From Methanomicrobiales archaeon (GTDB lineage: Archaea > Halobacteriota > Methanomicrobia > Methanomicrobiales > JACTUA01), in contig JACTUA010000008.1 of the NCBI GenBank assembly GCA_015660865.1, positions 1-50,546 of the forward strand: a stretch of 50,546 nucleotides of DNA. The letters are read 5' to 3'. Positions within the stretch are counted from its first letter, which is position 1. The number at the start of each line of letters is the position of its first letter. Below, piece by piece: positions 25,310 to 34,216 of the stretch. Under the pieces are notes generated by a model that had not been told where the DNA came from, searched no databases, and saw only the letters and a list, made by a program, of their open reading frames with translations. The position numbers were made by a program, and so were the translations under genes.

Positions 25310-26374
25310 TCACCGGGCCCCTGGTGGGGGATAGATGACTCTGCATCGGTTACCCAGGAAGGCAAGGGCACGGGCGATCCAGTCGCTCCAGGCCACCGGC
25401 CCTTCCGGAGTCATTGCCGCCAGCTCCCGGCCGACCTCATCATCCCTACCTTCCACAACCTCCACCACCACAGACCCAAAGGCATAACCGGCCTCGACGA
25501 GGCCATCCACGTCCCCGTCCACCACACCGAAGACCGGGATGCCCAAATGGGAGCAGATGTGCCCGCTTACCGCCGTGGTATCGTCTCCGATGGCAAGGAC
25601 CCCGCAGGTATCCGGGGTGATAAGCCGGTAGAGATCCTTGCCGCAATGGTCGGCAACGACGATCCTTCCTGAAGCGGGAGCAGGGCCACCCTTTCGCGGG
25701 GGCGCAATTCTCACGGAACCGCTCTTGCACCAGGCCCTGGAGAGGTCGATCCCCCCCATTCTCGCGAGCTTCTCCAGGCCATGGGCCTTGGGCCTGAGGC
25801 CGGATATGGCCTCGATACCGCCATCCCTTGACCGGATCACGACTTTCTCTGCGAGAGCCGTGCCGATGACAATCCCCTGGACCTGGACTGCTTCGCCGGG
25901 GAGGCAGCCCCGGATCTCCCGGTCCATACCCCCTTGTCCCAAGCCCGATGCTGCCTCTGTAAGGGAGTATCCAGTCTCCCTCGCAAGGAGGCGGGCAAAA
26001 TCCCGGTCCCCTCCGTTCCAGAGGTACACTGTCCGCGAGGAGCATTCCAGCTGGACGAGGGAGCTCTCAGCGGGGAGACGCGAAGCAACGATCTCCCCGA
26101 AGATCCTCCCCGACTCGGGGGTCTTCCCATGGTTCACCAGGAACACCTTCCCTCCTGCCCTCCTGAGAACAGAGCTCGGCGGGTCGCCATCGAAGGTTAC
26201 AGGCAGGCCCGACTCCTCTGCAGCGGTCCTTGCCATGACCCCGGCAACAATGGTCTTTCCGGGCGAGAGGAGGTCCTGGAGCCTGGCAACGTCCCCGCAA
26301 TCAAAAGCCTCGGGGCCATGGACAACCATGACGGCATTGCCAAACCGCCCCCGATGCAGGTCTTTTGGTTTCAT
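25310..26374 (-). CDS. DUF2117 family protein
   Basis: A cytoplasmic protein of 354 residues from ATG 26374 (an ATG at 26395 adds seven). The segment MVVHGPEAFDCGDVARL near the N-terminus matches the archaeal DUF2117 family, common in methanogens and of unknown function. A Cys-containing central part (LSRAWCKSG) and a C-terminal nucleotide- or ligand-binding-like stretch (GDDTTAVSGHICSHLGIPVFGVVDGD) are visible. It is the last gene of the L15e superoperon, after pcc1, where other archaea often carry prefoldin. Confidence 0.7.
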   Translation of the reverse strand: MKPKDLHRGRFGNAVMVVHGPEAFDCGDVARLQDLLSPGKTIVAGVMARTAAEESGLPVTFDGDPPSSVLRRAGGKVFLVNHGKTPESGRIFGEIVASRLPAESSLVQLECSSRTVYLWNGGDRDFARLLARETGYSLTEAASGLGQGGMDREIRGCLPGEAVQVQGIVIGTALAEKVVIRSRDGGIEAISGLRPKAHGLEKLARMGGIDLSRAWCKSGSVRIAPPRKGGPAPASGRIVVADHCGKDLYRLITPDTCGVLAIGDDTTAVSGHICSHLGIPVFGVVDGDVDGLVEAGYAFGSVVVEVVEGRDDEVGRELAAMTPEGPVAWSDWIARALAFLGNRCRVIYPPPGAR

Positions 26375-26407
26375 GGACCCCCGCCTTCCGGGCATTCCGG
26401 CCCCGCC

Positions 26408-26653
26408 TTATCCCTGATTACCGGTCATATCCAGCATCTCGGCAGCCACGGACACGAGCCGGAGCCACATGTTGAGGGCCGCCCTGAGGGCCGGTATGTC
26501 TTCTGCGGCAACCGATATCACGAGGAGATCATCCCCTTCAAGGGAAACCCCGACCTCGGTCCTCGGGTTGATCTCGCCGATCTCGGGGGTGAGAGCCCGG
26601 TATATCTCTGGGGCCATGCCGGATCGGCAGGAGAAGACCGCCGTGTGCTTCAC
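26408..26653 (-). CDS. pcc1: KEOPS complex subunit Pcc1
   Basis: An 81-residue protein with the Pcc1 pattern: an N-terminal strand HTAVFSC, then TEVGVSLEGDDLLVISVAAEDIPALRAALNMWLRL. Pcc1 dimers bridge the KEOPS complex, which makes t6A37 on ANN-decoding tRNAs. The GTG start overlaps the Brix gene stop by 4 bp (GTGA). Its place next to L37Ae-RpoP-Brix is conserved in archaea. Confidence 0.82.
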   Translation of the reverse strand: MKHTAVFSCRSGMAPEIYRALTPEIGEINPRTEVGVSLEGDDLLVISVAAEDIPALRAALNMWLRLVSVAAEMLDMTGNQG

Positions 26654-27048
26654 GATCCGACCTCGAGAGAGACGCGCCTGCCCTGGATCCCGTCCAGGAC
26701 GAGGGTGTGCGGAAGGGACTTTTCCCAGCTGACGGGAATGTGGGGGGAGAGGCTGGAGAGGAGCCCTGCATCGCCCGTGAAGAGGTCCCTCCTCAACGGG
26801 CCTGGCCGGTCCTCCTCCTTCACCGAGGGGAACCGCAGACATGCCACCTCCCTCATCCCATCGAGAAGCTGCATCTGCATCCCGTTCCCGTCCCTGCAGA
26901 GAATGAGCACCTTGCCGTCAGAGAACGGGGGCCGCGAAAGCCCCCCTTTCCCGCGGGTGAGATACCTGCCGCCTGTCGCAAAAGCGAGGTCCCTCCCGAT
27001 GCGGCGCACGAGGGGATCGGCTCTCCTGGAGGTCGTGACCAGGATCAT
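26650..27048 (-). CDS. Brix domain ribosome-biogenesis protein
   Basis: A 132-residue single Brix/IMP4-like domain beginning [22 protein letters not shown], the usual archaeal opening. Such proteins bind pre-rRNA during ribosome assembly. The ATG overlaps the RpoP stop (ATGA) and the gene is followed with overlap by pcc1. Confidence 0.82.
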
Positions 27049-27179
27049 CGGGCCTTGAGATCCTTGATCCCGGCCCCGCGCTCTTTGAAGAGGATGCGGT
27101 GCCCGCAGTAGGGGCACCTGACGTTCACGTCAATCTCGACCTTGTGCTTGCACCGGGCGCACTTGTAGACTCCGGGCAC
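27045..27179 (-). CDS. rpoP: DNA-directed RNA polymerase subunit P (Rpb12 homologue)
   Basis: A 44-residue zinc-ribbon protein: C7-x2-C10 and C22-x2-C25 bind zinc, followed by the basic segment [10 protein letters not shown]. This is the smallest archaeal RNA polymerase subunit. The start is a GTG 5 bp after the L37Ae stop, with GGGGTAGG upstream. Length and spacing match the family. Confidence 0.88.
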
Positions 27180-27184
27180 GGGGC

Positions 27185-27478
27185 CTACCCCTCCGGAGCC
27201 TGCGGCCGCTCGATCGACCGCTGGGCGATCTTGAATGTCGGGGTCTGGGGGACATATGCCCCGCCGGCAAACTTATAGCCGCACTTCCGGCACTCCCAGA
27301 TGCCCGTTCCCTTCCTCTTCACCGCAACCTGGTCGCAGCTCGGGCAGGTGTGGGTCGCCCTCGAGATGTCCTCGACCTCTGCGACACGCTTTCTGATGAA
27401 CCTGCCGTACCGGCAGCCGAACCTGCCGGCGCTCCTGGATATCCGTCCCTTTGATTTCTTCTGCTTGGTTGTGCTCAT
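27185..27478 (-). CDS. rpl37ae: 50S ribosomal protein L37Ae
   Basis: A 97-residue basic protein with the zinc ribbon C45-x2-C48 / C63-x2-C66 ([21 protein letters not shown]). The N-terminal [13 protein letters not shown] is typical. A strong ribosome site GGGGGAGG precedes the ATG. In other archaea the exosome genes rrp4, rrp41 and rrp42 stand directly upstream; here only 64 bp separates it from SBDS. Confidence 0.92.
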
Positions 27479-27521
27479 CTGATCCTCCCCCGATATGTCC
27501 CTCTTACTTCGACCTCTCCCT

Positions 27522-27535
27522 TCATATACTTAATC
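27522..27535 (-). promoter_or_regulatory. Internal promoter before rpl37ae
   Basis: Minus-strand ATTAAGTATATGAA provides a TATA box centred about 48 bp upstream of the L37Ae ATG. It predicts a leader of some 22 nt containing the GGGGGAGG ribosome site. It would allow the distal part of the superoperon to be transcribed separately. Confidence 0.5.
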
Positions 27536-27542
27536 GGATGGG

Positions 27543-28235
27543 TCAGAGTACCCGGACCTGCCCGCCCCCCTTGGAGACCTTCCGTACAAGGTTCTCGAGC
27601 TCCTGCTGCATCCCTCCGGGTATCTTGACCACGCAGATCCAGGATCCATCCTTCTGCCACTCCTCCTGCTCGATCCGGGCGAAGGCATCGATATCCCCGT
27701 AGGCCTTCGCCGCATGCTCGGGAGGGATCTTCACCGCTACCCGGAGCTCCTCGAACCGGATGGGGATGAGGGGGCGCAGGGCCTTCATGGTCTCGGCCAC
27801 CAGGTCGTCGAAGGGCTTGAAGGGGTCGATGGTAACCTTCGCCTCCTCCATGGCCATCTCGATCCGCGCCGGGGGATGGGGGAGCCCCGTCTGGGGGTTG
27901 ATCGCATGCCGGGCGATGAAGGTGATGACCTGCCCCCTCTTCTCTTCGATCAGGTGCCTGCGCTGCTCGGAGGTGAGGTGGATCTCGCCCTTTTCGATGA
28001 TGCGCCTCGCTATGGTCTCGAAATCGGTGGTCTGGAAGACCTTCTGGAGGGACTCGTCCGAGGACTTCTCGGCCCGGGAGGCGTTCTCGAAGATGAAGAT
28101 GGCCGCGACGGCGTCCTCGATATCGATCTCCTCGCCGTGCCGGATCTTCACGGAAAGGTCGGGGTCCACGAGGATCTCGAAACGCTCCCCGTGGGTCTCC
28201 AGCCGGGCAACGACCGCCCGGTCCAGGGGGATCAT
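27543..28235 (-). CDS. Ribosome assembly factor SBDS
   Basis: The 230-residue protein begins [25 protein letters not shown], the SBDS N-terminal domain, with the two further domains of archaeal SBDS behind it. It helps release the anti-association factor aIF6 from the large subunit. The ATG overlaps the psmA stop by 4 bp. Confidence 0.9.
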
Positions 28236-28966
28236 GCTACGCCGGTGTGCTCGAACTGCTCGACGAAGCTCGCGACCTCTGCCTTGGCCATCTTCCGGAA
28301 GGTGCGGGTCTTCTGCTCCACGATGCCGATCTCCACCGCATTCACGTCGAACTTCCCCTCGGTGGCGGCATGGAGGGCCTTCAAGCCCAGCAGGATCGCG
28401 TCCTTGCAGCCTGCGTCCGGGTTGTACTCCTCCTCGAAGACCTTCATCACCGCGGGCCGCCCCGTCCCGATGCCCGTGGCCTTGTACTCGAGGAGGGTGC
28501 CGCTCGGGTCGGTCTCGAAGAGGCGGGCGGTGCCGTCCGAGACGCCGGCGATGAGGAGGGCAGTCCCGTAGGGCCGGGCGCCGCCGAACATGGTATAGGT
28601 CTGCATGTGGTCGCAGAGCTTCTTTGCAAGCGTCTCCACGTCGATGGCCTCGTTGTAGGAGACCCGGTTGATCTGGCACTCGATCCTGGCCCGGTCCACG
28701 AGGGCCCGGGCGTCCCCAACGAGGCCACTCGAGGCAACCCCGATGTGCTCGTCGATCTTGAAGATCTTCTCGATGGAGGAGGGCTCCAGGAGCCGGGTCG
28801 CCACCCTCTTGTCCACGATGAGGACGACACCGTCGGTGCACTTGATCCCCACCGCGGTGGTCCCCCGCTTCACTGCCTCGCGGGCGTACTCGACCTGGTA
28901 GAGCCGCCCGTCAGGGGAGAAGACCGTGATGGCACGGTCGTATCCCATCTGGTACTGGGGTTGCAT
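28232..28966 (-). CDS. psmA: Proteasome subunit alpha
   Basis: A 244-residue alpha-type 20S proteasome subunit. The N-terminal gate region [20 protein letters not shown] is diagnostic. Alpha rings cap the catalytic beta rings and dock AAA ATPases. The ATG touches the Pop5 stop. The gene stays with RNase P and SBDS genes as in many euryarchaea. Confidence 0.95.
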
Positions 28967-29442
28967 TACCTCACCTCTCCGTCTTCAGTTGCGAAAAACA
29001 ACATTTCCTGACCTTTTATTCCCTTTTCGATCAAATCAACCTTTTGACCCGAATACGCCCTCGCGAGGAAGATCCTTCCCCCGATCCCGACCTTCCTCTC
29101 CCAGAGGAGCTCCGGCCTGGGGTACATGCGGCTCCTGATGGCATGCAGGGTGCCGCTCGTGGTGATGGTACGGAGGGCAACCCGCTCGTCCCCGACCCGC
29201 GTGATCGTTGAGATGGCGGTGATGAGCCGGTCCTCGGTTCCCCGGCGGCAGCGGACGATCGCCTGCCCTTCCCAGGCCATGACTGAAGGTGAGATCTCGG
29301 ATGATACGGTATCACCCCAGAGGGAGGTGCAGGCCTCGGCAACAGCCGCATATACCTCCCTCGGATCGAGCGATATCCCCTCGGGCACGAACCTGACGAG
29401 GACATACCGCCGCCTCTCGCGCTGGGAAGGGAGCTGGCTCAT
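28966..29442 (-). CDS. rnp2: Ribonuclease P protein component 2 (Pop5)
   Basis: The 158-residue protein has the Pop5 opening [12 protein letters not shown] and the central [17 protein letters not shown] segment. It pairs with Rpp30 to activate the RNase P RNA that matures tRNA 5' ends. It overlaps the Rpp30 gene by 4 bp. The C-terminal 50 residues extend beyond the minimal fold. Confidence 0.85.
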
Positions 29443-30074
29443 CCCCGCACCACCTGCACAGGGGATCTCCCGGAGAGGATGGAATCGAGGGAGGAGAGCG
29501 CCCCCATCACCTCGCCCTCCTCCATGTCAAAGAGTCGCGCGAGGAAGACCATATCCCGTACCGAGCGCTGTCCCAGGATCGAACGCGCATTGGAGGCCAG
29601 GGTAACGGGGAAGTGGTACCGGCGGTGGAGCTGGAGGAGATCCCTGTACCGGGAGATCACCCGCTGGCGCTGGATACCCCTTTCCCCGACGAGGGGGGAG
29701 AGATCGAGCTCGACGGCGACTCCCTTCGCCTCCGCCTCCCTTGCTGCGACGTGATTGAAAGCCCCTTTCGGGGACCGCTGGATTCCTTTGAGCACCCGGA
29801 CCCTTCTCAGCCCTATCACGGCCCGGTTGAATGCGAGATCCCCCGAGGTCACCATCACCACCCCGTCGCCCTGGGGGATCCCCTGGAGCGTGGAGACCAC
29901 CTCCTTCACCGAGGTTGCGGCGATGATGGTCCCTTTGAGCACGCCTGGAACCTCGTCGTTCCCGCCCGCTGCGACCACCTGGTCGAACCCGAGCTCGCGG
30001 GCCGTAAGAGCCATTCGCCTGATGGAGGAGTCCCCCTCGGGATAGGGGTGGATGCACCCGTCAATGAGAGGCAT
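29439..30074 (-). CDS. rnp3: Ribonuclease P protein component 3 (Rpp30)
   Basis: A 211-residue PHP-like TIM-barrel protein with the Rpp30 landmarks VAVELDLSPLVGERGIQRQR and TLASNARSILGQRS. It binds Pop5 in archaeal RNase P. It follows the L15e gene by 22 bp and is translationally coupled to the Pop5 gene. Confidence 0.85.
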   Translation of the reverse strand: MPLIDGCIHPYPEGDSSIRRMALTARELGFDQVVAAGGNDEVPGVLKGTIIAATSVKEVVSTLQGIPQGDGVVMVTSGDLAFNRAVIGLRRVRVLKGIQRSPKGAFNHVAAREAEAKGVAVELDLSPLVGERGIQRQRVISRYRDLLQLHRRYHFPVTLASNARSILGQRSVRDMVFLARLFDMEEGEVMGALSSLDSILSGRSPVQVVRG

Positions 30075-30096: not shown

Positions 30097-30687
30097 TTAC
30101 TTCCCGCGGTTCGCGTGGGAGCGGATACTCGGCCGGTTCTTCTCGGTGCCGATACCCTTCCGCCTCATGCCGCGCCCCTTCCGCCCTGCGCTCGTCATAC
30201 CCCGCTCCGCCCGCCCGCGGTGCCCCCGCTCCGCGAGCCAGGAGAGATGCGGGTCCCTCCGGATGGCGGGGTGGTGCCCGTCAACAAGGATCACCTCGTA
30301 CCAGCGGTGGCGGCCGTCCTCCCCGACCCAGTAGGAGTTGAGAACCTCCATATTGGGGAACTTTCTGGATGCCCGCTCCTCGGCGATCCGCTGGAGGCTC
30401 TTTGCCGGGGTCTTCTTCCTCATCCCCATATGGGCCGTCCGCCTGCCCCGGACATAGCGGCTCGCCCGCCGCCCGCCGCGGTGGACCTTCACCCGGGCAA
30501 CGGCAATGCCCTGCTTGGCCTTGTAGCCGAGGGCATGCGCGCGGTCGATCCTCGTGGGGCGATCCACCCGGACCACCGTTCCCTCATCTCTCCATACCTG
30601 CATCCGCTCCCATTGGAGGTCAGCGACGCCGGATGCATCGGCGTGTTTCCAGGCCTCCCGTACGTATGCGTACATCGATCGTACCAT
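30097..30687 (-). CDS. rpl15e: 50S ribosomal protein L15e
   Basis: The 196-residue basic protein starts [14 protein letters not shown] and contains the L15e core [16 protein letters not shown] plus [26 protein letters not shown]. It is the first gene of the superoperon. GAGGTGA lies 7 bases before the ATG. A strong TATA box and a leader hairpin precede it. Confidence 0.95.
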
Positions 30688-30793: not shown

Positions 30794-31261
30794 TCACTCC
30801 CCTTTCCGCTTCTCGAGGACCCGGATCCCGTCGATCACGGTCTCCGGGTACTGCCCCGCTGCATCCTTCTCTGCCGACTTCACCATGTCCCAGATGGTGA
30901 GGAGGGCGACCGAGACGCCGGTCAGGGCCTCCATCTCCACCCCGGTTGGTCCCCGGGAACGGACCGTGACCGTTGCCCGGATGGAGCCCTCGCCGTCGTA
31001 GAAGTCGACGTCGATCCCCGAGAGGGGGATGGGGTGGCAGAGGGGGATGATGCGCGGGGTCTCCTTCACCGCGAGGATCGCGGCCACCCGCGCGGTCGCG
31101 AGGACATTTCCCTTCACCAGGGTCCCCTCCCGTACCGCACGGAGCGTTGTTTCGCGGAGGCGGATCCTTCCTTCAGCAACAGCCTCCCGCACTACCTCTT
31201 CCTTCCCGGAGATGTCCACCATCTGCACCTTATCTCCCTTGATGTGGGTAAACTCAGCCAT
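30794..31261 (-). CDS. moaC: Cyclic pyranopterin monophosphate synthase
   Basis: A 155-residue enzyme making the cyclic pyranopterin of molybdopterin from the MoaA product. The family motifs LCHPIPLSG and RGPTGVEMEALTGVSVALLTIWDM are intact. In methanogens the cofactor carries Mo or W in formylmethanofuran and formate dehydrogenases. The ATG at 31261 overlaps the end of nnrDE by 8 bp; an earlier ATG at 31300 would sit deep in nnrDE. Confidence 0.92.
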   Translation of the reverse strand: MAEFTHIKGDKVQMVDISGKEEVVREAVAEGRIRLRETTLRAVREGTLVKGNVLATARVAAILAVKETPRIIPLCHPIPLSGIDVDFYDGEGSIRATVTVRSRGPTGVEMEALTGVSVALLTIWDMVKSAEKDAAGQYPETVIDGIRVLEKRKGE

Positions 31262-32780
31262 TCCCGGCACCCCCGGCAAAGAGGACGGAGGGTATCTCAT
31301 CCACCAGGTCGCTCGCCGTCATCCCGTCCCCCCTCTTCTGGGCCGCGATCATCCCCGCCGACCCGTTCACGTATGCGGCGATGCAGGCGGCCTCGAAAGC
31401 CGGGAGCCTGCAAAGGAGGGCTCCCGTGACCCCTGCAAGGACATCCCCGGTCCCTGCCACCGCCATCGCGGGGGAGCCCGTCGGGTTGAACCGCACCCTG
31501 CTCCCGTCGGATATGACATCCACCGGCCCCTTGAGGAGGACGACCGGGCGCTCGTTAAAGTGGCCGGTCGTGGAGAAAACCCCCGAAGCTGGTTTTCGAC
31601 CGACGACCGGGCGCTCGTTAGAGTGGCCGGTCGTGGAGAAAACCGGCAATGCCGGTTTTCGACCGACGACTCCGCCCCCTGCAGCCTCCAGCACCGCTCG
31701 CCCGCGGTCCACAAGCCCTTCGGGGGGGAGGTTTCCGGTCATCCGCTGGAACTCCCCGGCATGGGGCGTATAGATGGTCTCCTTCGAGACCGGCAGGGGG
31801 AGGCGGAGGGCGTCTGCATCGAAGACCGCCTTCCTGGCCGCATCTGCCACGGCGAGGACAACATCATGGCTCTCGGTGCCCAGGCCGTTTCCCACCACCA
31901 CTGCATCGGCCCGTTCCACGAGGCCGAGGATCCTCTCGAGATGGCCGGTGGAGATGCGATCTCCTTCCAGCCGCTCGTGGATGAGGTCCGGGACAGGTTC
32001 AAAGACCGGGGAGGCTATCCGCACGATGTCCGCCCCTGCCCGGAGGGCTCCCAACCCGGCAAGGTAGGGGGCTCCTTGGTAGGGCCCTCCACCGATGACC
32101 AGGACCTCCCCGTTCTCACCTTTCCGCGCATTCGCTGCCCGTCGCGGGACCAGGGTGAGATCGCCCGGACCCATGAAGACCTCGGCCGCGAGGGGGATCC
32201 CGATGTCTGCCACCTCAGCACCCTCGGTCTTTGGCCGGTGGAAGGCGCAGATCCGGGTGGCCCGCATCCCCAGCGTTGGGAGATCGGCAGCGATGATCGG
32301 GACCTTTGTCCCGCTAGCGAGCTCAACGCAGCGCGAGATAGGCTCCCGTGCCGTGCCCGAGGCACCGGTACCGATGAGCGCATCGATGATGACATCCGCG
32401 GCGGCAAAAAGGGGTGAGAGGACATCGACATCGGAAGCACACTTCACCGGGTAGAGGATGACCGCGGAGCCTGCCAGGATGCGGAGCTGGACCTCGGTTT
32501 CGGGGGCTAGGGGACCGTCAGAGGCATATATGACGTCGGTGGAGAGGTTCTGGAGGTAGCGTGCCGCAGCCATCCCGTCCCCCCCGTTCCTCCCTCTCCC
32601 GCAAAGGACGAGGACCCGGGAGGGTGAGAACTCAAGAGCCATTCCGGCGAGCGCCCTCCCCGCGCTCTCCATCATCTGGAGGGACCCCACACCGAGGGTG
32701 ATGGCGTTCCCCTCCACCGCCCGCATCCGTGCCGCGCTCACGAGCCCCTTCTCAAGGAACTCCCGCATCTCCGGTTCCAT
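31254..32780 (-). CDS. nnr: Bifunctional NAD(P)H-hydrate epimerase/dehydratase with in-frame repeat insertion
   Basis: A 508-residue fusion that repairs hydrated NAD(P)H. The N-terminal YjeF_N epimerase (about 1-210) has CGRGRNGGDG, and the C-terminal ADP-dependent dehydratase (about 220-508) has GGGPYQGAPYLAG, the TPHAGEF motif and the active site VAGTGDVLAGVTGA. Between EAAGGG and VVLLKGP, where the family has a short loop, lies a 42-residue insert (about 371-412). It consists of two near-identical 21-residue copies (GRKPA-x2-VFSTTGH-x-NERPVV). The frame is kept, so the enzyme is probably intact. The start ATG at 32780 follows a TATA box by about 29 bp. Confidence 0.9.
   Translation of the reverse strand: MEPEMREFLEKGLVSAARMRAVEGNAITLGVGSLQMMESAGRALAGMALEFSPSRVLVLCGRGRNGGDGMAAARYLQNLSTDVIYASDGPLAPETEVQLRILAGSAVILYPVKCASDVDVLSPLFAAADVIIDALIGTGASGTAREPISRCVELASGTKVPIIAADLPTLGMRATRICAFHRPKTEGAEVADIGIPLAAEVFMGPGDLTLVPRRAANARKGENGEVLVIGGGPYQGAPYLAGLGALRAGADIVRIASPVFEPVPDLIHERLEGDRISTGHLERILGLVERADAVVVGNGLGTESHDVVLAVADAARKAVFDADALRLPLPVSKETIYTPHAGEFQRMTGNLPPEGLVDRGRAVLEAAGGGVVGRKPALPVFSTTGHSNERPVVGRKPASGVFSTTGHFNERPVVLLKGPVDVISDGSRVRFNPTGSPAMAVAGTGDVLAGVTGALLCRLPAFEAACIAAYVNGSAGMIAAQKRGDGMTASDLVDEIPSVLFAGGAGNG
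31539..31664 (-). repeat. Tandem pair of 63-bp palindromic elements inserted in frame in nnr
   Basis: Two 63-bp copies lie at 31539-31601 and 31602-31664. They differ mainly in the centre of one hairpin. Each unit holds two inverted repeats. In copy 2, one is a perfect 11-bp stem (31638-31660) flanked by outer CGGTCG/CGACCG arms; the other is an imperfect 11-bp stem starting ACCGG. The unit is 21 codons with no stop, and a GACGAC hexamer borders both units and recurs downstream at 31665-31670. Confidence 0.85.
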
Positions 32781-32815: not shown

Positions 32816-34216
32816 ATGATAATGGATCTCCTGTCGGACGCGGAGGCCGCCGCTGGCCTCGTGGCTGAAGCGGGCGAGGTGACCCTCGTCTCCCACATCG
32901 ATGCCGACGGCATCTGCTCTGAGGCGATCCTCTCCCTCGCCCTCGAACGGCGGGGGATCCCCGTCCACCCCATCTTCGTCAGGCAGCTGGAGCCGATGAC
33001 GATGGGCACCGTCCCGAAGGACCGTTCCTTCAAGATCTTCACCGACCTCGGTTCAGGGCAGCAGAACCTCCTCGCAGAGCACGGTCTCTCCGAGGATGAG
33101 GTCCTCATCCTGGACCACCATGTCAGCCAGCCCGCGGGAAAGTCCTACCGCGAGGTGAACGCCCTCAATTACGGGCACGGGAAGCTCGCCGCATCGGGCG
33201 TGGCATACCTCGTCGCCCGGGCCCTGGATCCGAAGAATACGGATCTCGCCAAGCTCGCGGTGATAGGGAACGTCGGGGACATGATGGCCCGGACGGATCT
33301 GGGGCTGATTGGCCCGTCACGGGAGATCGCGGAGGATGGGGTCCGCCACGGCTCGATCGAGGTGGTGAAGAAGGATCTCAACTGCTTCGGCATCTCCACC
33401 CGGCCGGTCCACCTCTGCCTCGCGTACAGCGACGACCCCTTCGTCCCCGGCGTCACGAGCAACCCGAACGGGGCCCTCCAGTTCCTCCAGCGCCTCGGGG
33501 TCAACCTGAAGCACCCTTCGGGCCGCTGGCTCGTCTGGGAGGAGATCCCCATCGAGGAGAAGAGGAGGGTGATCTCTGCCCTCGCCCAGCAGCTCCTCTC
33601 CCATGGGAGGAGCCCCGACCGGCTCCTCGCCGAGGCCTATCTCTTCCCCGGTGAGACCCAGAGACCCCTCCGCAACGCCTCCGAGTTCGCCACGGTGCTC
33701 AACGCGTGCGGGAGGTGGGCGAAGCCGACCGTCGGGGCGAGGATCTGCCGGGGGGACCGGGGGATCGCTTTCCGTGAGGCTGAGCGGATGCTCACCCACC
33801 ACAGGGGGATGATCCGGGACCTCCTCCAGTTCATCCTGGAGAAGGGGGTGACCGAGATCTCCCATCTCCAGCACATCCATGTCGGGGACCGGTTCCCGGA
33901 TACCATCATCGGGATCGGTGCAGGGATGGCCCTGTCGAGGCTCAACCGGAGAAAGCCGATCCTGATCATGGCAGAGATGAGCGATGACCCCCTGATCACC
34001 AAGGTCTCCATGAGGACAAACGAGGAGATGGTGAAGGGGGGCACCGATCTCCAGCAGGCCATCGTCGACGCGACATCCGAGGTGGGGGGGTCCGGCGGCG
34101 GCCACCGCATCGCCGCAGGGGCCTACATCCCCAGGGAACTCGAGGAGAGGTTCATCCACTGTGTCAACCGAAGGCTCGAATGCCAGAATGCTCGCCCGGG
34201 TCAGGACCATCGCTGA
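32816..34216 (+). CDS. RecJ-like DHH-family phosphoesterase
   Basis: A 466-residue DHH/DHHA1 protein. Motif I is VSHIDADG, the DHH motif is ILDHHVSQP, and the C-terminal nucleic-acid-binding glycine motif is GGSGGGHRIAAG. Archaeal members of this size act as RecJ-like nucleases; one type, GAN, binds the GINS replication complex, another acts on RNA. Which one this is cannot be told from sequence alone. The ATG at 32816 has GGAGGGAG 9 bases upstream. Confidence 0.82.
   Translation: MIMDLLSDAEAAAGLVAEAGEVTLVSHIDADGICSEAILSLALERRGIPVHPIFVRQLEPMTMGTVPKDRSFKIFTDLGSGQQNLLAEHGLSEDEVLILDHHVSQPAGKSYREVNALNYGHGKLAASGVAYLVARALDPKNTDLAKLAVIGNVGDMMARTDLGLIGPSREIAEDGVRHGSIEVVKKDLNCFGISTRPVHLCLAYSDDPFVPGVTSNPNGALQFLQRLGVNLKHPSGRWLVWEEIPIEEKRRVISALAQQLLSHGRSPDRLLAEAYLFPGETQRPLRNASEFATVLNACGRWAKPTVGARICRGDRGIAFREAERMLTHHRGMIRDLLQFILEKGVTEISHLQHIHVGDRFPDTIIGIGAGMALSRLNRRKPILIMAEMSDDPLITKVSMRTNEEMVKGGTDLQQAIVDATSEVGGSGGGHRIAAGAYIPRELEERFIHCVNRRLECQNARPGQDHR

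Follow-up and report, generated by a model that had tools for sequence, protein, structure and literature searches.

The archaeal exosomal superoperon, reportedly predicted by Koonin, Wolf and Aravind in 2001, is recognizable in a contig of a Methanomicrobiales archaeon from which the genes rrp4, rrp41 and rrp42 are missing. The locus, which lies in a window of 50,546 nucleotides (the whole stretch of DNA that was analysed), raises the question of whether the exosome genes have been lost from this genome or moved within it, and of which enzyme may have taken over 3'-5' RNA decay.

All genes of the cluster are on the minus strand. Those for ribosomal protein L15e (30097-30687; PF00827, E 3.7e-79), the RNase P subunits Rpp30 (29439-30074; PF01876, E 1.5e-22) and Pop5/Rpp14 (28966-29442; PF01900, E 2.8e-15), the proteasome alpha subunit PsmA (28232-28966; PF00227, E 2.5e-58), the ribosome maturation factor SBDS (27543-28235; all three domains, PF01172, PF09377 and PF20268), ribosomal protein L37Ae (27185-27478; PF01780, E 4.4e-33), the KEOPS subunit Pcc1 (26408-26653, GTG start; PF09341, E 1.1e-11, also NF011470, E 7.6e-17) and a DUF2117 protein directly after Pcc1 (25310-26395; PF09890, E 7.8e-74) were all confirmed by Pfam search. 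Between L37Ae and Pcc1 are the RNA polymerase subunit RpoP/Rpb12 (27045-27179, GTG start), identified by reading the sequence, and a Brix-domain-like protein (26650-27048), assigned from its position and a weak match to NF002093 (E 0.0043) that is below the cut-off. Between the last base of SBDS (27543) and the first of L37Ae (27478) is a junction of exactly 64 bp (27479-27542, no strand assigned) at the site of rrp4-rrp41-rrp42 in exosome-bearing relatives. The gene order from L15e to Pcc1 in the original prediction, with its coordinates and 64-bp gap, is correct by Pfam, sequence reading and NCBIfam. The genes from L15e to Pcc1 have the same order and strand as in the predicted superoperon, and the order of its gene set (SBDS, L37Ae, RpoP and Pcc1, with Rpp30, Pop5 and PsmA) is kept, but here rrp4, rrp41 and rrp42 are deleted, prefoldin beta has moved away, and DUF2117 stands in its place. 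As a loss of prefoldin, the claimed replacement by DUF2117 after pcc1 does not hold: prefoldin beta is found on another contig of the genome (G000:C8:219031-219333). In two relatives from the order (L194, L195), prefoldin beta still follows Pcc1.

The claimed absence of rrp4, rrp41 and rrp42 between SBDS and L37Ae is borne out by the 64-bp gap and by tblastn, which gave no match there. A tblastn search with seven exosome proteins, taken from three relatives that have the exosome, found no exosome gene or remnant in the window. Two weak matches were rejected as remnants: the first runs antisense over hisD (E 3e-5 over 69 aa, with the low-complexity filter switched off), and the second (34 aa, E 0.035) is a chance match. 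That the gap is an assembly artefact is vanishingly improbable and is refuted: although the genome is in 9 contigs, the junction is far from the ends of its contig and is shared by 18 more genomes, several of which consist of one contig.

Relocation of the exosome genes within this genome is very improbable. Dispersal of the cluster does occur: in 26 of 80 exosome-bearing genomes, SBDS and L37Ae are split between contigs or separated by 12 kb or more. However, whole-genome searches for the missing proteins are empty. PF01138 (Rrp41/Rrp42, RNase PH fold) has no match in this genome (98.98% complete) or in any of 232 genomes of the order, including 135 with completeness of at least 90% and contamination of at most 5%, and PF14382 (Rrp4/Csl4 N-terminal domain) has none in 21 relatives including this genome, with Sulfolobus and Methanosarcina as positive controls. 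The same PF01138 search was positive in 220 of 392 genomes drawn from the phylum and in control archaea. At the sensitivity of these profile searches, with controls working, relocation is refuted. Rrp4, Rrp41, Rrp42 and Csl4 were all sought with the two profiles and none was found, and of the alternatives left by the original prediction, lost or moved, the evidence favours lost. Exosome loss itself is already known and ordinary for the order, being in print for Methanomicrobiales in passages of PMC8481954 and PMC4227792. The loss seen here is like the published one in Methanomicrobiales and Halobacteria in order and in missing subunits, while the SBDS/L37Ae junction and the order's RNB enzyme have no description in the passages concerned.

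The junction was mapped across relatives in a draw of 120 genomes of the phylum, as the distance between matches to SBDS domain II and to L37Ae (2 of the 120 had neither marker). It is collapsed in all 19 genomes of the order, where the domain matches are 288-321 bp apart and the genes directly adjacent. The matches are 2381-2987 bp apart in 51 of the 80 exosome-bearing genomes; in the remaining 29 they are on different contigs (22), 12-388 kb apart (4), or reduced to a single marker (3). The arrangement SBDS-Rrp4-Rrp41-Rrp42-L37Ae was read directly in L189, L190, L191, L192, L200 and L202. Adjacency in 19/19 order genomes, taken with the 2.4-3.0 kb spacing in exosome-bearing ones, therefore points to deletion in place: the exosome block was removed by an old, order-wide, in-place deletion. 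This would have been a single removal of rrp4-rrp41-rrp42, before the order diversified. In the 19 exosome-less genomes outside the order (presumably haloarchaea, 18 of them with RNB), SBDS and L37Ae are at least 79 kb apart or on different contigs. A clean in-place deletion in the order is thus set against a dispersed cluster in the other exosome-less group.

The gap had also been said to hold a fresh TATA box. Over the 19 spacers, the best match to TTTATATA averages 5.1 of 8, compared with 5.07 in shuffles, and the observed mean was reached by 973 of 2000 shuffles, which places the TATA-like string at chance level. The shuffle test gives no support to a new promoter; with spacers this short and an assumed consensus, one may still be present. 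Spacers ahead of L37Ae also occur outside the collapsed junction: 71 and 93 bases precede this gene in the exosome-bearing L192 and L200.

Judged from sequence, the likely 3'-5' replacement for the exosome is a hydrolase of the RNase II/R (RNB) type. The search for an RNase R- or RNase J-type alternative recovered an RNB protein, and RNase J/aCPSF-type proteins too. The genome has one RNB-family protein (G000:C7:88664-89659, 500 aa), with an RNB domain and a C-terminal S1 domain. It scores 262 bits with PF00773, above the curated cut-off of 29.3, and 270.7 bits with the RNase R equivalog TIGR02063, below the cut-off of 597.85. Its best solved relative is 8cdu (E 5.8e-43), which is B. subtilis RNase R according to a passage of PMC12320835. 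The catalytic aspartates of E. coli RNase II are given as Asp201, 207, 209 and 210 in a passage of PMC3293843. In alignment to RNase R, the order-type RNB keeps three of the catalytic aspartates; at the position of the fourth, all 99 family members compared have Gln, and RNB activity therefore cannot be assumed.

RNB was found in this genome and in 100 of 119 genomes of the order or class. In the draw of 392 genomes from the phylum, 207 have the exosome only, 149 RNB only, 13 both and 23 neither. As these counts follow a few clades, the genomes are not independent, and the link of RNB to exosome loss is a correlation across few clades. The best explanation, held with considerable confidence, is the order-wide deletion before diversification, with an RNase II/R-family (RNB) hydrolase, acting as a 3'-5' exoribonuclease, probably taking over the function alongside RNase J/aCPSF-type nucleases. 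Apart from a general suggestion on DnaG given below, open-licence papers, in the passages concerned, contain no statement that RNB replaced the exosome in Methanomicrobiales, and such a statement may still be published.

The 13 genomes with both systems show that RNB alone does not displace the exosome. The order-type RNB stands beside a complete exosome gene set in six genomes from the related families f14 and f22 (presumptive identifications), so the substitute may predate the loss, having existed while the exosome was still in place. RNB is absent from 19 of the 119 order or class genomes, all of which are also without PF01138, and therefore is not essential throughout the order. All 10 sampled genomes of genus g8 (G022, G023, G024, G026-G029, G039, G042, G043), among them two closed ones, have neither RNB nor the exosome. 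A fuller scenario, tentatively advanced and falling just short of probable, is that a non-haloarchaeal RNB family with Gln in the active site, older than the loss, replaced the exosome, and that RNB was then lost as well from some of the descendants (genus g8 and part or all of g16, g21, g22, g26 and g32), which live with neither of the known dedicated systems for 3'-5' exoribonuclease activity.

On its sequence, the order's RNB is not the haloarchaeal enzyme. It resembles Haloferax volcanii RNase R, an RNB-only enzyme in a passage of PMC12320835, in being an RNB-domain enzyme of an exosome-less archaeon. It differs from the haloarchaeal type in sequence (22-24% identity, about 23%), in its C-terminal S1 domain and in carrying the motif SIDNxDSxDLDQ for D.....DFDD, the latter seen in 19 of 30 haloarchaeal-type loci plus L085 (the other 11 of 30 were not used). 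By tree and alignment, the RNB sequences of f14 and f22 group with those of the order, and four haloarchaeal-type sequences are placed across a very long branch. The tree was made by a quick method with SH-aLRT support only, its named relatives are the best 80 of 564 confirmed, and the donor is not firmly placed in it.

Among these best 80 of 564 are Omnitrophota, Elusimicrobia, Micrarchaeota and Altiarchaeota bins with Methanomicrobiales-type RNB at 57-63% identity (L117, L130, L137, L144, L153, L154, L156-L160, L162-L166, L169 and L170; L158 is a complete chromosome). In this selected sample, RNB of the Omnitrophota and Micrarchaeota bins clusters beside order members in the tree. The pattern suggests transfer between domains, in either direction, with binning errors possible. 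Seven exosome-bearing genomes of family f8, genus g87 (G333, G425, G499, G505, G517, G525, G533), also carry an RNB protein, which scores lower (E about 1e-65) and may represent a third type.

A single ancient loss, common to Methanomicrobiales and haloarchaea, is an unlikely alternative to two losses. It would fit the DnaG tree in a passage of PMC4227792, in which exosome-less Methanomicrobia cluster with Halobacteria, and an RNB enzyme is found in most members of both groups. However, the RNB enzymes of the two groups share only the low identity given above and differ in active-site motif, and direct joining of SBDS and L37Ae in the order is opposed to their wide separation or split contigs outside it. 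Operon dispersal after a common loss could explain the differing junctions. Two separate losses are stated in a passage of PMC8481954, with which the junction contrast agrees.

A further alternative, less likely than not, is that a RecJ3/4-aRNase J complex carries the 3'-5' role and RNB is secondary. A passage of PMC10470531 proposes this complex for Haloferax volcanii, and as a functional substitute for the exosome in archaea that lack it. In its favour, all 18 genomes examined have DHH-family proteins and all 21 relatives have RMMBL (RNase J/aCPSF-type) proteins, and such a complex would account for the genomes without RNB. Against it, the RecJ encoded in the window lacks S1, which together with DHH defines RecJ3/4 in that passage, and it was rejected as an exosome substitute; this genome has two further DHH proteins. 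A general suggestion in a passage of PMC4227792 is that, in archaea lacking the exosome, DnaG may act together with homologs of RNases R and J.

DnaG is described as ubiquitous in archaea in the same source, in the passage concerned. Archaeal DnaG (NF003108), a subunit of the exosome, was found in 18 of 21 relatives, including 13 of 13 other near-complete ones. NF003108 gave no match in this genome, where an assembly gap is possible. As a contig-end effect the apparent absence gained no support: genes that neighbour DnaG in four relatives, sought in the window contig and in the 8 kb nearest to each end of 8 contigs, gave no match, and SBDS worked as positive control.

Two archaeal groups without an exosome, having apparently followed different genomic routes and carrying different RNB enzymes, constitute a natural experiment. 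With members that have neither system, it can be tested which nuclease is sufficient for archaeal 3'-5' RNA decay. Whether losing the exosome ends RNA 3' tailing is testable too. The Asp-to-Gln change across the whole RNB family poses a concrete biochemical question. The RNB family and the lineages with neither system are of modest interest for follow-up.

The RecJ-family nuclease just past the cluster (32822-34216, plus strand) has DHH, DHH-CID and DHHA1 domains and matches NF053576; in G055, G102 and G119, too, DHH matches lie no more than about 7 kb from the cluster. Elsewhere in the window, a 63-bp unit is present in two tandem copies that are 90% identical (31539-31664), in frame within a minus-strand ORF (31254-32780) that by eye is NAD(P)HX repair enzyme-like.
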